In this document: positions 5,462-30,624 of the stretch, one piece after another
Numbering within the stretch: the first letter of the stretch is position 1
How the letters are laid out: every line of letters starts with the position of its first letter
Source of the DNA: Chloroflexota bacterium
GTDB taxonomy: Bacteria; Chloroflexota; Dehalococcoidia; DSGV01
Length of the DNA: 41,182 nucleotides
Assembly (NCBI GenBank): GCA_021787985.1
Contig: JAJYLG010000024.1
Coordinates: forward strand, 1-41,182
Reading direction: 5' to 3'
Position numbers and translations under genes: made by a program
The notes under the pieces: model-generated
Told to the model about the DNA's origin: nothing
The model's input: only the letters and a program-made list of their open reading frames with translations
Database searches by the model: none

Positions 5462-5764
5462 TTAGCCGAGCGTGTCGGTGATGTCGCGCTCCCGCAGCAT
5501 GCGTCGCTTCCAGGTGCTCACCTGCGGGACGACGTACGGCAGCAGCCGCAGGCTGTAGTAGGGCGGGAGGATCGGCACTCCTAGCAGGTCGCCCATGGTG
5601 ATCAGGATGAACAGGTGCTCCATGCTGGCCCGCGTGCGAATCGCATAGCGGGACATGTCGTGGGAAGCCATGCCGTACATGACGTCCCTGGCGGCGCCGA
5701 ACGCGCCCAGGAATCGCTTCCGCTTCGGCTGAGGCTCGGGTGATTGCGCCTGTTCCGTTCCCAT
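5462..5764 (-). CDS. Small membrane protein, paralogue B of the cstA-ATPase cluster
   Basis: A 100-residue protein of no family I can name. A basic, Pro/Gln-rich N-terminus (1-20) leads to a helix-like stretch, then a hydrophobic core at about 50-81 with the motif MGDLLGVPILPPYY (57-70), and a basic tail WKRRMLRERD. The same motif and tail occur in the neighbouring 122-residue protein, so the two are paralogues. The core is long enough for one membrane span or a Pro-kinked hairpin. ATG 5762-5764 is preceded by ACGAGGTCACC. It sits between its paralogue (25 nt upstream) and the ATPase pair (43 nt downstream), all on one strand. I infer a membrane partner of the ATPases or of CstA. It does not obviously resemble YbdD/YjiX, the small partners of E. 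coli CstA and BtsT. Confidence 0.75.
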   Translation of the reverse strand: MGTEQAQSPEPQPKRKRFLGAFGAARDVMYGMASHDMSRYAIRTRASMEHLFILITMGDLLGVPILPPYYSLRLLPYVVPQVSTWKRRMLRERDITDTLG

Positions 5765-5788
5765 GGTGACCTCGTCGACTCCTCTGGC

Positions 5789-6157
5789 CTACAGGCCGTG
5801 CAGATCGAACTCCTCGCTTTCGAGCGGGTGGCGCTCGCGCAGCACGCGCCGGCGCCATGCCTCGACACTCCCGACGAAGTACGGGACGAGGCGCAGCGCG
5901 TAGTACGGCGGCAGAATCGGCACCCCGAGCGTGTCTCCCATGACCATGAAGATCAGCAGGTTCTCGAGGTCCGCACGGACATGAGCCGCGTGCCGTTCAA
6001 ACTCGAGACCGGTCGCGCCGTACAGCATCTGGCGCAGCGCCCGCGCGGCCGCCCGCGCCCGCCTGGAGACGGCTTGACGGGACTGGGGGGCGGCGCGCTG
6101 CATGTCCTGCGGCCGCTCGCCGCCCCCGTGCTCGACATGTCGCGGATGTGGGGACAA
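5789..6157 (-). CDS. Small membrane protein, paralogue A of the cstA-ATPase cluster
   Basis: A 122-residue protein with an Arg/Ala-rich N-terminal 45 residues, a hydrophobic core at about 66-95 with MGDTLGVPILPPYY (73-86), a basic WRRRVLRER segment and an acidic C-terminus. It shares the core motif and the W-R-R-x-L-R-E-R segment with the 100-residue paralogue downstream. The first codon is a TTG at 6155-6157, one base after the cstA stop. AGGAGGT lies inside the end of cstA (6171-6177), 13 bases upstream, a little far but strong. An in-frame ATG at 6101-6103 would give a 104-residue protein closer in size to the paralogue. Either way its translation follows directly from cstA. Function is unknown; membrane location is likely. 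Confidence 0.72.
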   Translation of the reverse strand: MSPHPRHVEHGGGERPQDMQRAAPQSRQAVSRRARAAARALRQMLYGATGLEFERHAAHVRADLENLLIFMVMGDTLGVPILPPYYALRLVPYFVGSVEAWRRRVLRERHPLESEEFDLHGL

Positions 6158-6158
6158 G

Positions 6159-7979
6159 CTACGCCGTCACACCTCCTGGAGCAGGCGCCGGCTCCACGGG
6201 CCGCTCGCGATAACGCTGGAACGCGCGGTAGCCGTCCCAGCCAATGAAGAGCGCGGCAACGAAGAGGATGAGCCCGATGATGATCGTCACGAGACTCCCG
6301 ATGACCGCGATCTCGTGTCCCGCGACGCCCCACTGCTTGACGAGCACGATCTTGTAAAGATTGTAGAGGATCACCAGGTCAGCGGCCATGGTGGTGACGT
6401 ACATGAACACGGCCGGAATGCCGGCGTAGAGCGGATTGCGCCGGGTCGAGGCAAGCCAGACCGTGACCACCAGCAGGCTTAGCGCGGCCATGAGCTGGTT
6501 GGCGGCACCGAAAAGCTGCCAGATGTAGATCCAGGTGCCGGAGATGACCAGCAGGAAGGTGGCCGCCATGCTGACCAGCGTTCCCACGTGGATGTTCTTG
6601 AAGATCGGGCTGCGGTCGCCCAGGCCCTCGGCCAACGTGACGCGCATCAGCCGGAACACGAGCTGCACGACCGTGATCACGATGACCACGAAGGCCGCGA
6701 AACCGAGCGCGGTGCCGTAGGTCAGCGGCACGCGGAAGATGTTGAGGAAGTCGCCTATGCCCTGCGCGAAGCTGGCCACTGGCGTTGCGCCGGGCTTGGC
6801 GGCCACCGCGATCGCCAGCAGCGAGAGCAGGCCAAGCGTGAACTCGCCGAACATCGCCCCGCCGCCCACGGGAAGCATGTCTTCCTCGTTCTCGATCTGG
6901 CGCGCGGTGCCGACGGACCCAATCAACGCGTGCCAGCCGGATATCGCTCCACAGGCGATGGTGACGAACAGCATCGGCCAGAGCGGTTGGATTTGCCCGG
7001 AAGCCCGGATGCTGGCCGGTCCACCGAAATGGGTGAACCCGGCGATATTGAAGGTGGATAGGTCGTGCTTGATGAAGAACGCGAGGAAGGCGCCCAGGCC
7101 GGCGAAGACGACCGTGAGCCCCGTGATCCAGAAGCCGATGTAGTTCACGGGCTGCGCATAGCGCCAGATCGGCAGGATCGCCCCGAGGTAGCAGAAGCCG
7201 AACAGGAAGAACAGCCAGAACACGAAGCTGATCGTGATCGGCACGCTCTGCTTGCCCGCCGGGTTCAGCGGGTTGAGCACCGTGACGATTCCGCCGGGCC
7301 TGAGGTCGTTCAGCCAGGTGTTGAAGTTCTTGAACGTCGTGGCGACCGGTCCGGTCGCGCTGGCGTTGAGGAAGATCGCCAGCAGGGTGCCGCCCACAAC
7401 GATCAACGTGACCGGGATCAGGTCCATCTTCATCCGGTAGAGCATGTGGCCGGCGGCGAGCCCGAGCACGGCCAGGGCCACGATCCCCAGCGGCACGCGC
7501 GGGTCGGTGAGCGTGCCCGCGACGATGTTGCCGAACGCCCCGGCGATGAGGAGCAGGTAGAAGAAGATGAACAGCAGCAGCAGCCGCCGCGTCCGCGGGT
7601 GGATCAGCCGGTGGGCGGTGGCCGACAGCGAGTTCCCCTCGTTGCGGACGGATACCACGATGGCGCTGTAGTCGCTGACCCAACCCATGAACATGACGCC
7701 CAGCACCAGCCAGATCAGGCTGGGCACCCAGCCCCACAGGGCCGCCGCCGTGATGGCCCCGACGATGGGGCCGGCGGCCGCGATCGACTTGAAGTGGTAG
7801 CCGAACAGCACGTTTCGGTTGGTGGGCATGAAGTCCACGCCGTCCATGTAGAGGCGCGCCGGCGTGGCGCGCTTCTTGTCCGCCTGGATCACCGTCCGGT
7901 CGATCCGGCGTGCGTAGAATCGGTAACCCAGGTAGATGGCGAGGACACCGATGATGATCGCTACCAGCGTGTTACCCAA
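6159..7979 (-). CDS. cstA: CstA-family peptide/pyruvate carrier
   Basis: A 606-residue polytopic membrane protein of the carbon-starvation CstA family, shorter than E. coli CstA (about 700). Family features are clear: GYRFYARRID near the N-terminus, the DGVDFMPTNRNVLFGYHFKS stretch at about 46-65, AAGPIVGAI, GWVSDYSA and GAISGWHALIGSVGTARQIE in the middle. E. coli CstA and BtsT import pyruvate or peptides with protons, and this protein probably acts as a similar secondary carrier. The start is TTG 7977-7979, with AAGGGGGG nine bases upstream; the first membrane span begins right after it. It is the first gene of a minus-strand cluster with two small membrane proteins and two ArsA-like ATPases, a context I do not know for characterised cstA genes. 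acs upstream suggests shared use in carbon scavenging. Confidence 0.93.
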   Translation of the reverse strand: MGNTLVAIIIGVLAIYLGYRFYARRIDRTVIQADKKRATPARLYMDGVDFMPTNRNVLFGYHFKSIAAAGPIVGAITAAALWGWVPSLIWLVLGVMFMGWVSDYSAIVVSVRNEGNSLSATAHRLIHPRTRRLLLLFIFFYLLLIAGAFGNIVAGTLTDPRVPLGIVALAVLGLAAGHMLYRMKMDLIPVTLIVVGGTLLAIFLNASATGPVATTFKNFNTWLNDLRPGGIVTVLNPLNPAGKQSVPITISFVFWLFFLFGFCYLGAILPIWRYAQPVNYIGFWITGLTVVFAGLGAFLAFFIKHDLSTFNIAGFTHFGGPASIRASGQIQPLWPMLFVTIACGAISGWHALIGSVGTARQIENEEDMLPVGGGAMFGEFTLGLLSLLAIAVAAKPGATPVASFAQGIGDFLNIFRVPLTYGTALGFAAFVVIVITVVQLVFRLMRVTLAEGLGDRSPIFKNIHVGTLVSMAATFLLVISGTWIYIWQLFGAANQLMAALSLLVVTVWLASTRRNPLYAGIPAVFMYVTTMAADLVILYNLYKIVLVKQWGVAGHEIAVIGSLVTIIIGLILFVAALFIGWDGYRAFQRYRERPVEPAPAPGGVTA

Positions 7980-18825: not shown

Positions 18826-20373
18826 TCAGGCCCGGGTGATCGCGGTGCAGGGCACACCGCGCACGGCGATCTCCGGCGCGTGGGTGATCTCGTCCGCCGC
18901 CCAGACCAGCACCGGTCGTGGGTTCGGCCCGATCCCCAGCACGGACTGCAGGACACGCAGCAGGTTGTCGTTCACGCGGAGCGCGTTGGCTTGCAGCGGC
19001 TCGGCCAGGCGGCCGCCGCGGATCACGAACGAGTCGCCCACCACCGTGCAGGTGAAGTCGGCCGCGCGCAGGCCGTTGACCGGGTAGGTGTACCAGATGC
19101 GGCCGATGTACAGCCCATCGCCCACGCGCCGCAGCAGCTCGTCGCGCGGGACGGGCCGCGAGCTGCTGACGATGAAGTTCGTCGCCGCGACGCCCGCCTG
19201 GCGGTCGTGACGCCGCCCTCCGCCCGTGCCGAAGCGGAACCCGTTCCGCGGCAGCAGGGCCAGCGGGTGCTTCGCCAGGTCGGGGCCGAGCCGCTCGGCG
19301 GCGTCCGGCGCGTGGCGCAGCCGCTCCGCCTCATACCAGTTGCAGAGGAACGCGCAGACGCGTCCGTCCTTGATGAGCTCGGTGCGGCCGGTTGGCAAGC
19401 CCTCGCAGGTGATGCCCTTGGAGCCGGGGTAGCCGGGCATGGCGCCGTCGTCGACAACCTGCAGCTCGCTCACGCCCACTTGCTGCCCGAGCTTGCCGTT
19501 GAAGGGCGAGCTGCGGGCGTACACGGTGCCGGCGCTGAGGCTGGGCGCCAGCAGGTAGGTGCAGAGGTCGGCCACGGCCTGCGGCCCGAACACCACGTCG
19601 TGCTCGCCCGACGGCACGCGCACACCGCCCATCGCGTCCACGGAGGCGGCCGCCGCATCACGGCCGGCCGTGCCGTGAAACTCGGCCAGCCGCGTCGTCG
19701 CGCTCCAGCCGCTGCCCTTCGCCTCGTCGCGCTCCACCATGGCCGTGGCGAACGCCATCAGCACGGCTGACTCGTCGGCCTGAGGCTCGGGCATCGCCGT
19801 GCTGGCAACGGCCATTCGCTCCTGAAGCACGGTCACGTCTCCGCCGGTGATGAGGCGCAACGCGGCGGCGCGGGCCGGGTCGTCGCCGATGCCGAGACGC
19901 TCGTCCTGGCGGAAGGCGCGCAGTGCCGCCTCGAGGACCTGCCAGCCGGCGCCGACCAGGTCCTCGTTGCCGAGCTCCATCAGCGCTGGATCGTGGTAGT
20001 GGCGCAGGGTGCGTTCGCCGGCCGTGGGCCGCGGGAGCGAGCGGAAGTCGGGGTCGGCCACGGCGGCGCGCCGGGCGCGATCGATCGCCACCCGGATGCC
20101 GTCGTCGGACAGGTCGGCGGTCTCGCTGCCGAACCCGACGCGCGGTGGTCCGCCGGCGGGGTCGCGGAGCACGAGGGTGATGCCGATTCCGTGGCCGGAG
20201 GAGCTCTTGGGCTCCTCGACCCCGTTGCAGGGGATGGCACTGGTGAAGTTGAGCCGCGCGTTGAGCAGGTTGTTCCAGCTCGCGAACGTCTCGGCCTCGA
20301 CAATGTCGGACTCGGCAGAGGCGGCGATGAGGGCGCGGCGGACAGCGGCGGCGAGATCGTCGACGGTCGGCAT
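18826..20373 (-). CDS. TldE/PmbA-like metallopeptidase-family protein
   Basis: A 515-residue protein of the TldD/TldE (modulator of DNA gyrase, PmbA) family. TldD and TldE form a heterodimeric protease that matures ribosomally made peptides and degrades unfolded peptides; only TldD carries HExxxH. Here that motif is absent, so this is the TldE-like half. Family stretches include VVFGPQAVADLCTYLLAPSL and NGKLGQQVGVSELQVVDDG, then VVGDSFVIRGGRLAEPL. The C-terminal region also has NFIVSSSRPVPRDELLRRVG. ATG 20371-20373 has GGGAGGGG upstream. The TldD-like partner lies 1.6 kb away on the same strand (22017-23585), interrupted by other genes, so they are not in one simple operon. Confidence 0.88.
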   Translation of the reverse strand: MPTVDDLAAAVRRALIAASAESDIVEAETFASWNNLLNARLNFTSAIPCNGVEEPKSSSGHGIGITLVLRDPAGGPPRVGFGSETADLSDDGIRVAIDRARRAAVADPDFRSLPRPTAGERTLRHYHDPALMELGNEDLVGAGWQVLEAALRAFRQDERLGIGDDPARAAALRLITGGDVTVLQERMAVASTAMPEPQADESAVLMAFATAMVERDEAKGSGWSATTRLAEFHGTAGRDAAAASVDAMGGVRVPSGEHDVVFGPQAVADLCTYLLAPSLSAGTVYARSSPFNGKLGQQVGVSELQVVDDGAMPGYPGSKGITCEGLPTGRTELIKDGRVCAFLCNWYEAERLRHAPDAAERLGPDLAKHPLALLPRNGFRFGTGGGRRHDRQAGVAATNFIVSSSRPVPRDELLRRVGDGLYIGRIWYTYPVNGLRAADFTCTVVGDSFVIRGGRLAEPLQANALRVNDNLLRVLQSVLGIGPNPRPVLVWAADEITHAPEIAVRGVPCTAITRA

Positions 20374-21344: not shown

Positions 21345-22020
21345 CGCCCCGCGGCCCGCGGTAGGCGCCTCGGTAGCGCTCAGGCAGGAGCGCGGCGATC
21401 GCGCACATGATCCGGTCCGTCTCCTCCTCGAACCGCTGGCTTCGCTCAGAGCGCGGCGGCAGCGCCAGGCGCAACGGCGGACCGAACCGCACCACCACCC
21501 GCGGCCGGCGGCCCTGGAAGAAGCGGCGCGGATGGTCGAGCGCCTCGATGCCCCAGGTGGCACAGGGCACGACCGGCGCGCCGCTCAGCGCCGCGAGGTA
21601 GGCGACGCCGGCTCGAGCGCGGTGCAGCGCGTATCCCTCGGAGAGGTCCCCCTCCGGATAGATGCCGATCGTTTCGCCGGAGCGCAGGACGCGCAGCGCC
21701 GCCATCAGCCCTGGCAGGTCGGTGCCGTCACGGCGGACCGGGATGACGCCGCAGCGACGCACAACGCTCGACCAGCCGCGCTTGCGCAGGTGGTCGGCCG
21801 CGACAACGAAGTGGACGCGGCGCGGCACCGCCACGACGATCGGCCACGGGTCCATGCGGTGAATGTGGTTGGAGGCGATGATCACGGGACCGGACCGCGG
21901 CACGTGCTCGTCCCCCTCGATCCGGACACGGAAGAAGGGGTGCAACCCCTGGCGCCACATACGCCGCATACCGGCGTAGAAGCGCGGGTTCATGGGCAGG
22001 GAAGTCGGCCGGGCGGTCAC
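21316..22020 (-). CDS. PlsC-type 1-acyl-glycerol-3-phosphate acyltransferase
   Basis: A 234-residue acyltransferase. The catalytic HX4D box is in SNHIHRMDPW (about 51-60), and the substrate-binding IYPEGDLSEG matches the second block (the usual EGTR is EGDL here). FFRVRIEGDEHVPRSGPVII precedes the first block as in PlsC. It should acylate lysophosphatidic acid in phospholipid synthesis, at the membrane face. Its GTG start (22018-22020) overlaps the TldD stop as GTGA, so it is coupled to tldD, an odd pairing. It overlaps the convergent MaoC-like subunit B at its 3' end by 29 nt. Confidence 0.88.
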   Translation of the reverse strand: MTARPTSLPMNPRFYAGMRRMWRQGLHPFFRVRIEGDEHVPRSGPVIIASNHIHRMDPWPIVVAVPRRVHFVVAADHLRKRGWSSVVRRCGVIPVRRDGTDLPGLMAALRVLRSGETIGIYPEGDLSEGYALHRARAGVAYLAALSGAPVVPCATWGIEALDHPRRFFQGRRPRVVVRFGPPLRLALPPRSERSQRFEEETDRIMCAIAALLPERYRGAYRGPRGATPAPGAPR

Positions 22021-23585
22021 GGACCCGTGAGGAACGCCTGGCCGCGCATGGTGGGTCCGCCGTTGCCGAGCCGCTTCGTCTGCATCGGCTGGCCCTTGCC
22101 GCAGTTCGGGATGGGCAGCAGCCGCAGGTCGCTGCCTACCGCATCGATCGAGCGGAAGAAATCATGCGTGCTCGAGGCGATGCCGCCGTCGCGGTAGAGC
22201 TGGCCGACCTCGCCGTTCCGCACCTCATACACCTTCATCGCGGTGATGCGGAAGTTCTCGCGCGACTCGGCGATGGAGGGGATGCGGTGGCCGACGACGT
22301 AGTAGCCGTGGCTCACCTCCTTCAGGATCTCGGCCGGGTCGCGGTCGCCCGCCGAGAAGAAGACGTTGCTCATGCGGATGAGCGGGACCATGGCGGCGTC
22401 GTTGGCGCGGGCCGAGCCGTTGGGCTCGGCGCCGAGCAGTGCCGCGGTCTGGCGCGAGTTCATGAAGCCGCGCAGCACTCCGCGGTCGATGAGCGTCACG
22501 CGCGTTGCCGGGGTGCCCTCGTGGTCGTAGACGTAGTGGCCGTAGCCGGGGGCGCGTGGGTCGGCGTAGGCGGTCACGAAGGGCGAGGCGACCTCGCGCC
22601 CGAGCATCGTATCGTTGGCGGAGCGCAGGAGCCAGGAGCGGCCGGCGTAGGCGGTCTCCATCTTGAGGGCGCGGTCGAGCTCGGTCGGATGACCGACGAC
22701 CTCGTGGGCGACGAGCGCGTTGAAGTGCGGGTCGGTTACCACCGTGACCGGGCGGTCCGTGGTCGGCGCGGGCGGCGCCACGCACAGCTCGGCGGCGTCG
22801 CGGGCAAGCGCCTCGGCGAACGTGCGCAGCGGCGGCTGGCGCATCAGCGGCTCGTCCACGCCGGCGACGGCGACCTCCCAGCCACGCTGGTGGCCGTGGG
22901 TGTCGTACAGCTCGACGGCGGCGTCGCCGACACCGACGACGTAAACGAAGCTCTCCGTGAACGCGAACCACTGGTCGAGCGCGGCGCCCTCCGAGCTGCA
23001 GAAACACTCGCGTTCCATCCAGGTGCCGGTCGCGACCATCGAGTAGCCGATGCGGGGGACGGCCGCGATGGCCGAGGCGACCTCGCGCACGAGTCCGGCC
23101 ACGGCCTCCAGCGGGACCGTCCGCGGGTCGACGCGGCAGTCTGGCTCCACGCGGGCCTGGTGCACCGCAACGGACGCCAGCGGCAGCTCGCGCAATGCGT
23201 CGGCCACCGCGCCGAGGTCACGTCGTGCGGCGGCACGGCGAGCGGCGTTGTGGCAGGCGCGCTCGTATGCCGCGGCCGTGAGCTCCGCGAGCAGGTCCGG
23301 GACGCGTCTGCGGTCGGCAGGTCCGAGCACGCGCGCGGCGAACCCCGGTGCCGCCTCGCTCTGGCCGGCGATCACCCGCACGCCGACGCTCCAACCGCTG
23401 TCCTCGGACGAAGAGCGCAGGCTGCCGTCCTCGCCCATGGCGCTGCGCGTCTCGCTCACGCTGAAGCGGGCGTCGCAGTAGCGCAGCAGGGGCCAGCGTC
23501 CGCCGGGAGCAGAGGCGTCGCCGCAGAACGCGGTGCCGGTGGGGACAACAGGGTCGAGGTCGGTGCACGCGATCCGCTCGCTCAT
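22017..23585 (-). CDS. TldD-like zinc metallopeptidase
   Basis: A 522-residue protein of the TldD family. The zinc motif HEVVGH (HExxxH) is at about residues 294-299 in FNALVAHEVVGHPTE. Downstream, GYGHYVYDHEGTPATRVTLI and RGVLRGFMNSRQTAALLG are typical TldD stretches, and VYEVRNGEVGQLYRDGGI lies near the C-terminus. With a TldE partner it forms a narrow-pore peptidase acting on extended peptides. The likely partner is the PmbA-like gene at 18826-20373. ATG 23583-23585 is chosen; a GTG 15 nt upstream is also possible. It lies 27 nt after a DUF2269 membrane protein gene and overlaps the acyltransferase gene by 4 nt. Confidence 0.9.
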   Translation of the reverse strand: MSERIACTDLDPVVPTGTAFCGDASAPGGRWPLLRYCDARFSVSETRSAMGEDGSLRSSSEDSGWSVGVRVIAGQSEAAPGFAARVLGPADRRRVPDLLAELTAAAYERACHNAARRAAARRDLGAVADALRELPLASVAVHQARVEPDCRVDPRTVPLEAVAGLVREVASAIAAVPRIGYSMVATGTWMERECFCSSEGAALDQWFAFTESFVYVVGVGDAAVELYDTHGHQRGWEVAVAGVDEPLMRQPPLRTFAEALARDAAELCVAPPAPTTDRPVTVVTDPHFNALVAHEVVGHPTELDRALKMETAYAGRSWLLRSANDTMLGREVASPFVTAYADPRAPGYGHYVYDHEGTPATRVTLIDRGVLRGFMNSRQTAALLGAEPNGSARANDAAMVPLIRMSNVFFSAGDRDPAEILKEVSHGYYVVGHRIPSIAESRENFRITAMKVYEVRNGEVGQLYRDGGIASSTHDFFRSIDAVGSDLRLLPIPNCGKGQPMQTKRLGNGGPTMRGQAFLTGP

Positions 23586-23612
23586 CCGTTTCTCTCTCAC
23601 ACGATGTAGCGC

Positions 23613-25527: not shown

Positions 25528-25829
25528 GATTTTCACCTCGGCCGCTGGGGCTCGATCTCATGTTCGGGCCGGGTGGCCGCCGCAGGTGTGAAGCGGCCCC
25601 TAAACGTCTCCCAGCGTTTCGCGAGTGAGGTCCGCGGCGGATGGCTCGCACGGCAGCCAGCGGAGGCCGGCCTGGCGGGCACGCTGAGGCGCACGCGCTC
25701 TCCCGCTGTTGGCCGCTCCACGTCGGGCGGGAGGCGCAGACGCAGCGGACGCGGTCCGGACAGCCGGCCGGTTGGCGGCGAGGACGCGGGACGCGGGGTA
25801 TCCTGCTGTTACGGGAGGGGTGGGGACTG

Positions 25830-27073
25830 ATGGCGCTGCCGCTGGAAGGAATCCGCGTTCTCGACATGACCATCTGGCAGCAGGGCACGTATGGTGCGGC
25901 CATGCTGGCGGACATGGGCGCCGACGTGATCAAGGTCGAAGGCCCCGACTCGCCGGATCCAGGCCGGGGGCTGCAACACGCCGAGGGCCTGCCGCCGGGC
26001 GTGAGCCCGTACTTCGAGGCGCACAACCGCAACAAGCGCGGCATCGTGGTAGACGCGAAGCACGCGCAGGGGCGCCAGGTCCTGCTGCGTCTGGCGAGCA
26101 CCACGGACGTGTTCGTCCAGAACATGCGCAAAGGCGTGGCCGAGCGGCTGGGCCTCGGCTACGACGACCTGCGCGCGGTCAACCCGCGGATCATCTACGC
26201 TTCGGCGAGCGGCTACGGCGACCTGGGGCCGGAACGTGAGCTGCCATCGATGGACATCATGGCGCAGGCGCGGGGCGGGCTGATGAGCGTGGTCGGCGGC
26301 CCGGACGACCCGCCGTTCTCCGCGCCGGTGGGGTTGGCGGACCAGGTGGGGGCGATGTGGCTCGCCTACGGCATCATGGTCGCCCTCTTCCACCGCGAAC
26401 GGACGGGGGAGGCCCAGGCGGTCGACTGCTCGCTGCTGGGCGGCCAGGTGGCGCTGCAGAGCTTCAACATCGGCGTGTACCTGGCGAGCGGGCAACCGCC
26501 GCAGCGACGCCCACGCACGGAGGCCCAGCCACTCTGGAACATGTACCGTTGCGCCGATGGCCGCTGGCTGGTGATCGGTCTGCCTCAGGGCGACCGCTGG
26601 TGGGCCGGCCTGTGCGCGGCGCTCGAGCTCGATCACCTGGCCGACGACCCGCGGTTCTGCTCTCTCCTGGCGCGCTCGCAGAACAACCGCGAGCTCATCG
26701 CGGTTCTTGACGAACGCTTCGCCGGGTTGCCCGCGACGAGTGGGTGCGGCGGCTGAGCGACCGCGGGCTGATGTGCGCCCCGGTGAACGACTACGCCGAG
26801 GTGGCCGAGGACATCCAGGTGCGGGCCAACGAGTACGTGGTCGAGGTCGACCATCCCGTGCTGGGACGCACGCGCGTGGTAAACACGCCGGTCCGTCTCT
26901 CGAAGACACCGGGCGGGATCCGCCGCTGCGCGCCCGAGTTCGACCAGCACACGGAGCAGGTGCTGCTGGAGGCCGGCTTCGGCTGGGACGAGGTGGCGCG
27001 GCTGCGGGCGGCGGGCGCCATCGGCTCGCGGGCGGCCGGTGATAGACTGGTGCCCGAGGGGATGGGGCAGTGA
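25830..27073 (+). pseudogene. Class III (CaiB/BaiF) CoA-transferase with one-base frameshift
   Basis: Read through the frameshift this is a protein of about 413 residues, normal for formyl-CoA transferase relatives. It starts with LEGIRVLDMTIWQQGTYGAA and GADVIKVEGPDSPDPGR. The catalytic Asp is in SMDIMAQARGGLMSVVGG, equivalent to Asp169 of FRC. At 26730-26733 the frame breaks: the first frame ends soon after in a TGA at 26754-26756, while the next frame continues RDEWVRRLSDRGLMCAPVND, the expected sequence. One extra C in the CCC run would restore it. This may be a real mutation or a sequencing error. ATG 25830 follows GGGAGGGGTGGGG. The glutaredoxin gene overlaps its stop by 4 nt. Confidence 0.88.
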
Positions 27074-27282
27074 GCGGCCTGGTGATCTATACGCTCGGCA
27101 ACTGTCCCACCTGCGCCCGGGCGAAGGCCGACCTCGACGCCGCCGGCGTTCCCTACGAGGAGCGCCGGGTCGATCAGTCGGTCGAGTACTGGGAACAAGC
27201 GACCGAGCTCGCCATCACCGTTCCGATCCTCGTGCGCGAGGATGGCCGGCTGGAGGTCGGATGGAAGGGCGAGACCGGCTGA
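27070..27282 (+). CDS. Glutaredoxin-like protein
   Basis: A 70-residue protein with a glutaredoxin fold: VIYTLGNCPTCARAKADLD has a CPTC active site at Cys12 and Cys15, and ITVPILVREDGRLEVGW has the Val-Pro cis-proline and the strand that follows. It is cytoplasmic and shorter than E. coli Grx3 (about 82). It may reduce protein disulfides using glutathione or another thiol; many bacteria of this type lack glutathione, so the donor is uncertain. The start GTG overlaps the stop of the CoA-transferase gene (GTGA), so it is translated with it. Confidence 0.85.
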   Translation: MSGLVIYTLGNCPTCARAKADLDAAGVPYEERRVDQSVEYWEQATELAITVPILVREDGRLEVGWKGETG

Positions 27283-27463: not shown

Positions 27464-29638
27464 ATGACGGTGAGACTCCACAACACGCTGACGCGCACGC
27501 GCGAGGTGTTCGCGCCGGCACGGCCCGGCGCCGTGCACATGTACTCGTGCGGTCCGACGGTGTACCGGTACGTCCACCTCGGCAACCTGCGCACGTATCT
27601 GATGTCGGACTGGGTCAAGCGGGTACTGCTCGCCAGTGACTACCGGGTACGTCACGTGATCAACATCACGGACGTCGGTCACATGCGCCAGGACGTGGTC
27701 GATCGCGGCGAGGACAAGGTGATCGCGCAAGCGCTGCGCGAAGGCAGGACGCCGCAGGAGATCACCGCGTTCTACACGCAGGCGTTTCTCGATGATCTCG
27801 CCGCCCTCGACATCCTGCCCGCCGACCACTACCCGCGCGCCACCGAGTACGTGCCGCAGATGATCGCGGTCGTGGAGCGTCTGCTGCGGCGCGGGCTGGC
27901 GTACGACGTGAACGGGACGATCTACTTCGACGTGGGCCGCTTTCCGGAGTACGGGCGGCTGTCCGGCACCTACGGCCGGCGGCTTCTGGAAGGCGTGCGC
28001 GGCGAGCTCGACCCGGGCAAGCACGACACGCGGGACTTCGCCCTGTGGAAGCGCGCCGAGCCAGGCCGGGTGATGAAATGGGCCAGCCCGTGGGGCGAAG
28101 GCTTCCCCGGCTGGCACATCGAGTGCACGGCGATGAGCACCAGCATCCTCGGCTACCCGGTCGACATCCACTCCGGCGGCGTGGACAACATCTTCCCCCA
28201 TCACGAGGACGAGCTGGCGCAGAGCGAGGGCGCGTTCGGGCCGGGCTTCGTCAACTACTGGCTGCACGGGCAGCACCTGTTGGTGGACGGCCTCAAGATG
28301 GCGAAGTCCACCGGCAACACGTACACGCTGGCCGACCTGCGCGCACGTGGCTACGACCCGCTCGCCTTCCGCTATCTCTGCATGACGGTCCGCTATCGGG
28401 CGCGGCTCAACTTCACCTTCCGGGCGCTACGCGGGGCGCAGCGGGCGCTGGATCGGCTGCGGCGCGCTGTCGCGGTGGGAATGGCGCCGGGCCCGCTTCC
28501 GACCGAGCTCAGCCCGGCCGCGGTCGCCGCCCGTAACGCGGTGTGGGAAGCGGCCGGCGACGACCTCAACCTGCCGCGCGCGCTTTCCGCGGCGTGGTCG
28601 TTGGCGATGGGCGGCGCGCTCGACCCGCGCGAGACCGCGGCGATCTTGCTCGACGCCGACCGACTGTTCGGGCTGCGGTTGCTGGAGGCTGCCGCCGGCG
28701 CGTTGGCGCTCCCGACCGAGGTCGCTCGGCTGGCGGCCGGTCGCGAGGCGGCGCGCGCCGCGGGCGACCACGCGACGTCGGACCGCGCGCGCGCCGATCT
28801 CGTGGAACGGGGCTACGAGGTCGAGGACCTGCGGCCGCGCACCGTCGTGCTGCGACGCTTCCCCGGCCCGCCGCGCGAGGAGCGCTTCGTCACTCGCAGC
28901 GCCGACGTGGCGGACCTGCGCGGCGAGCCGTCCTCTTGCGACGTCACGGTGGCCGTCGTGGGGCGCGATGTGCGCGACGAGGTGCTGCGGGCCGTGCGCT
29001 CCGCGCTGCGGCACCCGCCCGCGGGACGAAGCCTCGAGCTGATCGTCGTCGACGCTGGCTCGACCGACGGCACGGCGGAGGCGGTCCGCGCCCTCGCTGA
29101 CCGGCGGGTGCGAGTCTTCGAGGCGGACCACGACCTGGGGGCCGCGGCGGCGCGCAACGTGGCGCTTCGACAGGCGCGCGGCGCGCATGTCGTCATCTTC
29201 GAGCCGTGGATCGAGCTGACCGGCGACGCGCTCTCGCCGCTGATGCGGGCGCTGGAAGACCCGGGCGTGGGCATCGCCGGCCCGTTTGGCCTGCGCACGG
29301 CGGACATGCACCACTTCGAGCCGGCCCCCGCAGGTGAGGTGGACGCCGTCGAGCTGTACTTGATGGCGTTGCGACGAGATACGTTGCGTCGCGCCGGCCT
29401 GATGGACGAGCACTATCGCTTCTACCGCAACCTCGACATCGACTACTCGTTCGCGGTGCGCGCACGGGGATTGCGGGCGGTCGCGATCGGCGGCCTGCCG
29501 TTGGTTCGCCACCCGCACCGCGCCTGGGAGTCGCTGAGCGAGGAGGAGCGCGCCGAGCGCTCGAAGCGCAACTTCGACCGCTTGCTCAGGCGCTGGCGGC
29601 ATCGCCCCGCCGGGGGCGGATTGCGCGCGGTCCCCTAA
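27464..29638 (+). CDS. cysS: Cysteinyl-tRNA synthetase fused to a GT2-like glycosyltransferase domain
   Basis: A 724-residue fusion. Residues 1-480 form a CysRS that charges tRNA-Cys: zinc ligands Cys29 (YSCGPTVY), Cys221 (WHIECTAM) and His246/His247 (FPHHEDE), the HIGH-class HLGN at 38-41 and KMSKS as KMAKS at 278-282. A linker of about 10 residues follows. From Cys492 to the end is a family 2 glycosyltransferase-like domain with [18 protein letters not shown], then [15 protein letters not shown]. Where GT2 enzymes have the metal-binding D-x-D, this has FEPWIEL, so sugar transfer may be lost. The reading frame is continuous, without stop or restart signals. Start ATG 27464 is where CysRS similarity begins; its ribosome site is weak. 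I do not know of a characterised CysRS with such a tail. Confidence 0.93.
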
Positions 29639-29914: not shown

Positions 29915-30217
29915 GTGGCCAAAAGGATAAGCGCCGCTCAGGCGAAGGCACATCTCTCGGACCTCATGGCGCAGGTGGGCTATGGAGGCGAGCACTACGT
30001 CATCGAGCGCCGAGGCAAGCCCCTGGCCGCGCTGGTCAGCATCGCAGACCTGGAGTGGCTGCAACAGGGGCGCGCGAGCGCGGCGCGACCACAAGGCGCC
30101 CTCGCCATCGTCGGCGCGTGGCGAGATGTCGATGACCGGGACCTGGACGCCCTGACCGCCGAGATCTACTCGGAGCGCGCCCGGGATACGGGCCGGCCGG
30201 TGCCCTTCGTGGCCTGA
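29915..30217 (+). CDS. Phd/YefM-type antitoxin
   Basis: A 100-residue antitoxin. The N-terminal DNA-binding part has RISAAQAKAHLSDLMAQVGY, and VIERRGKPLAALVSIADLEW is the Phd/YefM strand-turn motif (T-R-R-G-K-P-x-A-x-L-V). The C-terminal third is acidic (AWRDVDDRDLDALTAEIYSE) and should wrap the toxin. It probably represses its own promoter and neutralises the PIN toxin. Start GTG 29915 has a GAGG site six bases upstream. Its TGA overlaps the toxin ATG by one base, a usual arrangement. Confidence 0.88.
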   Translation: MAKRISAAQAKAHLSDLMAQVGYGGEHYVIERRGKPLAALVSIADLEWLQQGRASAARPQGALAIVGAWRDVDDRDLDALTAEIYSERARDTGRPVPFVA

Positions 30218-30624
30218 TGTACCTGCTGGACACGGACATCCTGAGCAACCTCCTGCGGCGGGCTCCGTCGACAGCCTTGATTGCCAAGCTCGCCTCGGTG
30301 CCGCCGGAGCAGCAGTTCACCTCCAGCATCACCCTGGGAGAGCTCGTCTACGGCGCGCATCGCTTGACGGAACGCACCGCCGCTCTGCTCCAGTGCCTCG
30401 ACGAGACGTTGCTGCCCAACCTGCCCGTACTCCCCTTCGACGCTTCCGCCGCGCGTCGCTACGGCGAGACCAGGGCCGAGCTGGAGCGACGGGGAACGCC
30501 GATCGGCGACGCCAACCTGCGCATCGCGGCGATAGCTCTGGACCATGACCTTACCGTCGTCACGGGGAATGTCCGCCATTTCGAGAAGGTCCCCGGTCTG
30601 CCGGTCGAGAACTGGCTGGACTGA
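30217..30624 (+). CDS. VapC-type PIN-domain ribonuclease toxin
   Basis: A 135-residue PIN-domain toxin. The acidic active-site residues are visible: MYLLDTDILSNLL (Asp5 and Asp7), GELVYGAHR (Glu), and GDANLRIAAIALDHDLTVVT, with the Asp of the third motif and the HDLTVVTGN..HF end motif. VapC toxins cut tRNA or rRNA and slow growth when the antitoxin is lost. It is coupled to the antitoxin gene by a one-base overlap. Nothing suggests truncation. The 160-bp stretch after it holds no gene that I can support. Confidence 0.9.
   Translation: MYLLDTDILSNLLRRAPSTALIAKLASVPPEQQFTSSITLGELVYGAHRLTERTAALLQCLDETLLPNLPVLPFDASAARRYGETRAELERRGTPIGDANLRIAAIALDHDLTVVTGNVRHFEKVPGLPVENWLD

Follow-up and report, generated by a model that had tools for sequence, protein, structure and literature searches.

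Aminoacyl-tRNA synthetases (aaRSs) with an added domain are known. Papers on aaRS paralogs name MshC and CysRS* as relatives of cysteinyl-tRNA synthetase (CysRS) and, in the sections accessible to us, mention no fusion with a glycosyltransferase (GT) (PMC9437257, PMC2922099, PMC11580382). The accessible part of one of them describes CysRS* as having no anticodon domain, and GluQRS as a paralog of an aaRS catalytic domain that attaches an amino acid (PMC9437257). In E. coli CysRS, R427, D436 and W432 are reported, in the excerpt consulted, to contact G34 of tRNA-Cys, with R423 doing so through water (PMC12684709). As far as the available portion of a further paper describes them, QTGAL and QTMAN are the animal queuosine-tRNA glycosyltransferases, which act on Q34 of tRNA-Tyr and tRNA-Asp (PMC12518689). 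Our search of the open-access literature, outside which most subscription papers lie, yielded no paper that we recognised as treating a CysRS-glycosyltransferase fusion, a glycosyltransferase of family 2 (GT2) joined to the CysRS anticodon-binding module CysS_C, or an S51 peptidase joined to CysS_C. The activity of a CysRS-GT2 fusion such as the one described here is possibly new.

Results

The window, by which we mean the whole stretch of 41,182 nucleotides that was analysed (Chloroflexota bacterium, contig JAJYLG010000024.1), contains at 27464..29638 a single unbroken frame of 724 amino acids plus stop, in which a complete CysRS is followed by a GT2 domain of the GT-A type (plus strand, as are all parts of the gene given below). 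A second in-frame ATG lies upstream at 27242, and the start at 27464 is favoured by the family alignment. The first-pass annotation of this DNA had called the fusion unusual, had proposed to look for it in relatives and to check for a missed stop, and had named, as the case that would overturn it, a sequencing error that merged what in relatives are two separate genes. We confirm that the fusion is real and conserved. Of the 80 top-ranking loci in the genome collection, 32 were fused; 31 of these are intact, and L049 is frameshifted. Adding the window's own genome and three relatives gave 35 intact fused proteins, namely that of the window and 34 relatives (identity 41-54%), and a later set comprised 57 distinct loci in which the fused gene is kept. 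A missed stop does not account for 35 intact fused proteins in one alignment and 57 in all, and a neighbouring unfused pair was seen at one locus (L225). That the fusion is an artefact of assembly or sequencing, or that the GT-like tail arose by chance, might be thought from an assembly in 189 contigs; with 57 fused loci, among them one from a named strain (L037) and one in a chromosome-level record of 3.4 Mb (L023), the probability of this is negligible.

The catalytic part of the CysRS (residues 1-335; 27464..28468) is matched by PF01406 over residues 17-325 (2e-93), and the protein scores 379 bits with the CysRS model TIGR00435, whose cut-off is 340. The HIGH signature reads HLGN (residues 38-41; 27575..27586) and the KMSKS signature KMAKS (residues 278-282; 28295..28309); H38, G40, N41, K278, M279 and K281 are present in all 57 fused proteins and S282 in 56. 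The zinc ligands, spanning 27548..28213, are C29 (56 of 57), C221, H246 and E250 (57 each), which we take to be the counterparts of C28, C209, H234 and E238 of E. coli CysRS. The CysS_C-like anticodon-binding part (residues 418-457; 28715..28834), placed by alignment to E. coli CysRS, scores 20.3 bits with PF23493, slightly under the cut-off of 23, and holds R427, R431, H436, D440, R443 and D455. In that alignment, R427, D436, W432 and R423 of the E. coli enzyme fall on R431, D440, H436 and R427 of the window protein, so that the residues expected of a tRNA-Cys anticodon domain, R427, R431 and D440, are all present. Across the family, the equivalents of E. coli R423, R427 and D436 are kept in 54, 56 and 57 of 57 proteins, and the stacking aromatic is Y, F or W in 56; the window protein has H436 there. 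Within the CysRS half, conservation is lowest in the anticodon and DALR/helical parts, where mean pairwise identity is 0.33, compared with 0.65 for the catalytic part, both taken within the fused family, and the linker that follows (residues 466-490; 28859..28933) has 0.31. AlphaFold2, run on the 35-row alignment, modelled the whole protein with a pLDDT of 88.9, and the CysRS part superimposes on E. coli CysRS bound to tRNA-Cys (1u0b) with Z 47.4 and rmsd 3.1 over 445 aligned residues. With catalytic, zinc and anticodon-contact residues kept, the CysRS half looks competent.

The GT2/GT-A domain (residues 492-712; 28937..29599) starts where the first-pass annotation had placed it, the first GT strand being predicted at 492-500, and PF00535 matches residues 504-607 with 56.7 bits against a cut-off of 23.3. 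Structure prediction of this C-terminal part, which had also been proposed, returned a GT-A fold. Modelled alone (34 rows) it reached a pLDDT of 93.9, and it matched GalNAc-T2 (Z 20.9, rmsd 3.0, 225 aligned), a Pyrobaculum mannosyltransferase (Z 20.2, rmsd 3.6, 217 aligned), chondroitin polymerase (Z 20.1, rmsd 2.5, 208 aligned) and SpsA (Z 18.4, rmsd 3.5, 204 aligned). The replacement of the metal-binding DxD by FEPWIEL, noticed earlier in the window protein, proved to be its version of a family trait. In the alignment of the 57, with the register set by HMMER, FEPWIE (29198..29215) stands where relatives mostly have LDTSVE; the first D is present in 56, the window protein being the sole one with E (E580), and the second D in none, so a DxD metal site is absent. 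D658 (29435..29437), Y654, R655, G559 and G573 occur in 57 of 57 long forms, N565 and E525 in 56, E584 in 54, G587 in 52, D530 in 51 and D588 in 50. D658 is presumed to be the catalytic base, that of the GT2 family's ED motif, in an inferred register: the HMMER alignment to 6p61 sets that motif two residues from D658. The C-terminal half of the GT is also better conserved than the anticodon part (0.51 vs 0.33). The window protein itself deviates from the family in E580, in H436 and in its long branch (0.68). Judged by these residues, the long-form GT half is odd, without signs of degeneration. Three ktedonobacterial fusions (L035, L036, L037) have long histidine-rich C-terminal tails, perhaps metal-binding.

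The same GT domain is also found without a synthetase. A scan of 400 genomes of the phylum with the GT profile matched 117, many of them in frames that, at roughly 290-400 residues, could not accommodate both a CysRS and a GT, and 20 short or similarly non-fused matches were chosen to span several families and the longer contigs. The N-terminus of the short forms is the CysS_C module. PF23493 scores L217 above its cut-off of 23 bits (32.0), L214 and L224 slightly under it (20.5 and 22.2) and L230 more weakly (17.1), and was found neither in L219 as first framed nor in L228. An anticodon pattern (R, R, aromatic, D, R/K, G, D at CysRS spacing) is present in 18 of the 20 frames, or 19 when the upstream in-frame extension of L219, which holds it, is counted; it occurred in 0 of 4000 shuffles, and among 977 other frames the CysRS of L225 was the single one to show it. 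At that locus an unfused CysRS of the fused type adjoins a short CysS_C-GT2 gene in convergent orientation. In L228, the N-terminus is reduced and CysRS-like; neither a complete CysRS nor the anticodon pattern was found there. The GT tree requires four steps between long and short form (3-4 across bootstrap trees, 0% with one), and a tree with the short forms held together is not rejected (AU p 0.178). From these trees we tentatively favour several losses of the synthetase, each leaving the docking module in place. In the GT site of the short forms, the second D of DxD is again absent (0/20), and N565 is kept in 19, D658 and D588 in 18 each, D530 in 10 and D555 in three. With D530 lost in half of them and D555 kept in so few, some short forms may therefore be inactive.

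Around the short gene, five genomes of one family, f115 (L214, L215, L216, L231, L233), have oligopeptidase F and a ManC-like gene nearby, typed by Pfam in L214 alone, and gamma-glutamyltranspeptidase is also near in L214 and L215. ManC-like genes, of the GDP-mannose pyrophosphorylase type, are a weak hint that the donor could be a GDP-sugar. In L219, L220, L222 and L223, the short gene adjoins ETF-type genes and a carboxyltransferase (typed in L219 only).

Near the long form, S51 peptidases make up seven of the 125 neighbour proteins of the 57 loci, and each adjoins the fused gene, downstream on the same strand in L035, L036, L038 and L074, upstream on the same strand in L003, and upstream and divergent in L039 and L044. 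A weak S51 match lies immediately downstream of the GT match in G527, G534 and G625, and L230 carries S51, CysS_C and GT2 in a single chain (TIGR02069, 3e-4). The S51 domain of L230 aligns with the seven neighbour S51 proteins in hhalign (98.4%, 1e-14), and a scan with it matched 104 of 400 genomes of the phylum. Of the 15 S51 loci inspected, one is L230's own (L234). In eight others (L235-L238, L240, L241, L243, L244) the S51 domain precedes a CysS_C module that shows the complete pattern; L239 ends before CysS_C could be judged, and no such module was found behind S51 in L242 and L245-L248. PF23493 scores over its cut-off directly behind S51 in at least 30 of the 38 S51 genomes shared with the PF23493 sample. 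Hydrolases of S51-CysS_C type, without a synthetase, are thus widespread in the phylum; the window genome gave no S51 match at 1e-8.

No universal partner gene was found around the 57 fused loci. The commonest other neighbours, MatE (10), pyruvate kinase, ACP synthase III and Na/Ca exchanger (seven each of the 125 proteins), look like lineage synteny. A defence system was considered and rejected, with no PADLOC match for three proteins. In the window, a CaiB/BaiF-type CoA-transferase lies immediately upstream of the fused gene in two overlapping frames (25641-27070, plus strand; PF02515 1-293 and 299-366), which is either a frameshift or a pseudogene. The next annotated pair downstream is a Phd/YefM antitoxin followed by a PIN-domain toxin (29915-30624, plus strand), and two non-adjacent TldD/PmbA-type proteins are encoded on the same, minus, strand at 18829-20373 and 22020-23600.

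Records with the fusion are labelled mostly Chloroflexi, Dehalococcoidia, Ktedonobacteria, Dormibacterota and SAR202, with L025 labelled Desulfarculaceae, and the cultured strain Thermogemmatispora carboxidivorans PM5 (L037) is among the carriers. The distribution is patchy: a sample of 393 genomes from the window's class contained 41 with the fusion, 37 near full length and four partial (G257, G110, G304, G266). A second CysRS-type match is present in 36 of these 41, and the remaining five (G121, G143, G195, G275, G304) have a completeness of 72-91%. In a set of 36 fused genomes that overlaps this sample in part, the second CysRS is full or nearly so in 32, a fragment in three (G047, G049, G058) and not found in one (G046); that of the window genome, on contig C120, is 41% identical. 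In the CysRS tree, the 57 distinct fused CysRS domains form a single clade (SH-aLRT 97) with one Thermogemmatispora CysRS, a degenerate paralog (L006) and L053 as neighbours, and the usual Chloroflexota CysRS falls in a separate clade. The wider clade around the fusion consists of ordinary CysRS, the sole CysRS found in 20 of 20 genomes tested out of 48 such unfused loci. L006 (113-2871) has an ordinary CysRS followed by the degenerate paralog, which bears WHIED for WHIEC, has lost KMSKS and is without a GT domain; no GT-domain match was found within the 13-kb locus of L053, a Chloroflexi CysRS (5749-7404).

Discussion

At the level of sequence, our alignments establish two things: a CysRS that retains every catalytic, zinc and anticodon-contact residue is joined to a predicted GT-A domain with a conserved DTSVE for DxD, and the same predicted GT domain elsewhere bears only the CysRS anticodon-binding module. 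CysS_C is apparently kept on the GT after loss of the synthetase and is also placed on a hydrolase, and the shared partner is therefore most likely tRNA-Cys. From the conserved residues, CysS_C would dock the protein on tRNA-Cys, at its anticodon arm, a step that by itself we regard as somewhat probable. Since the GT domain directly adjoins the anticodon module, it would reach the anticodon arm and not the far amino-acid end. These two considerations together suggest a tRNA-Cys-directed glycosyltransferase, in which a nucleotide sugar would serve as donor and the GT2 domain would attach its sugar to the tRNA-Cys anticodon arm. Transfer would proceed without a DxD-bound metal, and the conserved R638 and R655 could take over its charge, for which metal-independent GT-A enzymes offer an analogy. 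The long form could also charge the same tRNA with cysteine, and the S51-type hydrolase with the same CysS_C may belong to the same tRNA-Cys-centred process, possibly acting on the same modification. The whole chain of reasoning, a bifunctional Chloroflexota enzyme with tRNA-Cys-directed glycosyltransferase activity, is our preferred reading and is put forward tentatively. With slightly more reserve still, we suggest that Chloroflexota may glycosylate the anticodon arm of tRNA-Cys, that the CysRS anticodon domain may serve as a portable tRNA-Cys address tag on a GT (with or without CysRS) and on an S51-type hydrolase, and that these may be writer and possibly eraser or trimmer of a tRNA-Cys mark.

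Several observations count against glycosylation of tRNA-Cys. The second D of DxD is absent from all 57 long and all 20 short forms, D530 is lost in half of the short forms and D555 kept in three, and the window protein has the deviations E580 and H436 and a branch of 0.68. Conservation of the anticodon part is low (0.33 vs 0.65), an AU p of 0.178 leaves room for the short forms to have arisen once, the window genome has no S51 at 1e-8, the distribution is patchy, and L228 is without a complete CysRS or the anticodon motif.

In the main rival reading, the GT2 domain has given up glycosyl transfer; it would still bind a nucleotide sugar, or RNA, and act as a sensor or tRNA-gripping module by which a second, conditional CysRS is tuned. 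The absence of the second D of DxD in both forms fits this, as do the short forms without D530 (10 of 20) or D658 (two of 20). Against it stand D658, G559, G573, Y654 and R655, invariant in the long forms, a GT C-terminal half conserved above the anticodon part (0.51 and 0.33), and the persistence of the domain where there is no CysRS to tune; we judge it a serious alternative, if rather unlikely. The 'non-enzymatic tail' of the first-pass annotation is a version of this live rival: the loss of DxD from all 57 speaks for it, and the presumed catalytic D658, kept in all 57, against it. A lower probability is given to a tRNA-Cys-dependent pathway for a small molecule or peptide, in which the CysRS would make Cys-tRNA-Cys, the GT2 domain glycosylate a cysteine-derived intermediate and S51 trim the product. 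The adjacency and fusion of S51 are in keeping with such a pathway, and so are oligopeptidase F and the ManC-like gene near the short form in the five f115 genomes, with gamma-glutamyltranspeptidase in two. The genes shared around the 57 long loci, however, resemble only lineage synteny, and the anticodon end of a tRNA is far from its amino acid.

The two remaining readings turn on known CysRS relatives. MshC is not known to have an anticodon-binding part. The first-pass annotation had suggested a tie with mycothiol, and the fusion would then be a cysteine-sugar ligase for a mycothiol-like low-molecular-weight thiol. The kinship of CysRS and MshC (3c8z against the CysRS fold: Z 45.0, rmsd 2.0, 368 aligned) and the combination of a GT with a cysteine ligase in one chain speak for this. 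However, the MshC model TIGR03447 gives the window protein 215.9 bits against a cut-off of 485.1, seven fused genomes have separate MshC-like genes whose products form a clade of their own (one of these genomes, G070, holds the unfused relative L053), and the fused family retains an anticodon domain with its tRNA-contact residues. On score, clade and anticodon domain we reject an MshC role, and the broader idea of a thiol ligase is improbable. Less probable still, and indeed scarcely credible, is a second CysRS for an orthogonal tRNA, in the manner of CysRS* with selC*, even though 36 of the 41 fused genomes of the class have a second CysRS-type match. The window genome has a single tRNA-Cys (GCA) among 41 typed of 47 tRNA matches, and the six untyped ones (C22, two on C157, C70, C60:2444, C182) are all over 80 bases, the length of Leu-, Ser- and Tyr-type tRNAs. 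With one tRNA-Cys found, both CysRSs of this genome therefore meet the same tRNA. No tRNA gene was found in the window, in keeping with no coupling to a selC*, and the 32 loci scanned near the fusion gave one tRNA-Ala and no tRNA-Cys. The fused protein also has the anticodon domain that CysRS* is described, in the part of the source consulted, as lacking (PMC9437257).

If tRNA is glycosylated as we propose, the family would provide a bacterial tRNA-glycosylating enzyme whose target is betrayed by its own docking domain. Even otherwise, one anticodon-binding module is common to a synthetase, a glycosyltransferase and a hydrolase, which makes for a widespread use of a CysRS part for which we met no earlier description, and a CysRS C-terminus in a protein does not always mean a synthetase. 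Analysing what tRNA-Cys carries would test the function directly.

Compared with known systems, the fused protein shares with CysRS (TIGR00435; E. coli 1u0b/1li5) all signatures, zinc ligands and anticodon contacts as well as the fold (Z 47.4), and differs in its added GT2 domain and in being usually a second genomic copy. With MshC (TIGR03447; 3c8z) it has the CysRS-derived catalytic fold in common; unlike MshC, it has the anticodon part, belongs to another clade and lies far under the MshC cut-off. Its GT domain resembles GT2 enzymes of GT-A type (GalNAc-T2, K4CP, WrtF, SpsA) in fold (Z 18-21), in VDNGS, N565 and the presumed base D658, whereas DTSVE stands for DxD and the domain is joined to CysRS or CysS_C. 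Cyanophycinase and other S51 peptidases (TIGR02069, PF03575) are represented here by a partner domain that adjoins or is fused to the CysS_C-GT2 family, with the difference that at least 30 bear a CysS_C module. To our knowledge, queuosine is absent from tRNA-Cys. QTGAL and QTMAN would be alike in placing a sugar on a tRNA anticodon loop, if the predicted activity is true, a likeness of function; the animal enzymes, as the available portion of the paper has it, act on Q34 of tRNA-Tyr and tRNA-Asp (PMC12518689). GluQRS and other tRNA-modifying aaRS paralogs likewise reuse aaRS parts for tRNA modification; in GluQRS, according to the accessible text, the paralogous part is the catalytic domain (PMC9437257), whereas in the CysS_C-GT2 family it would be the anticodon domain that is reused.
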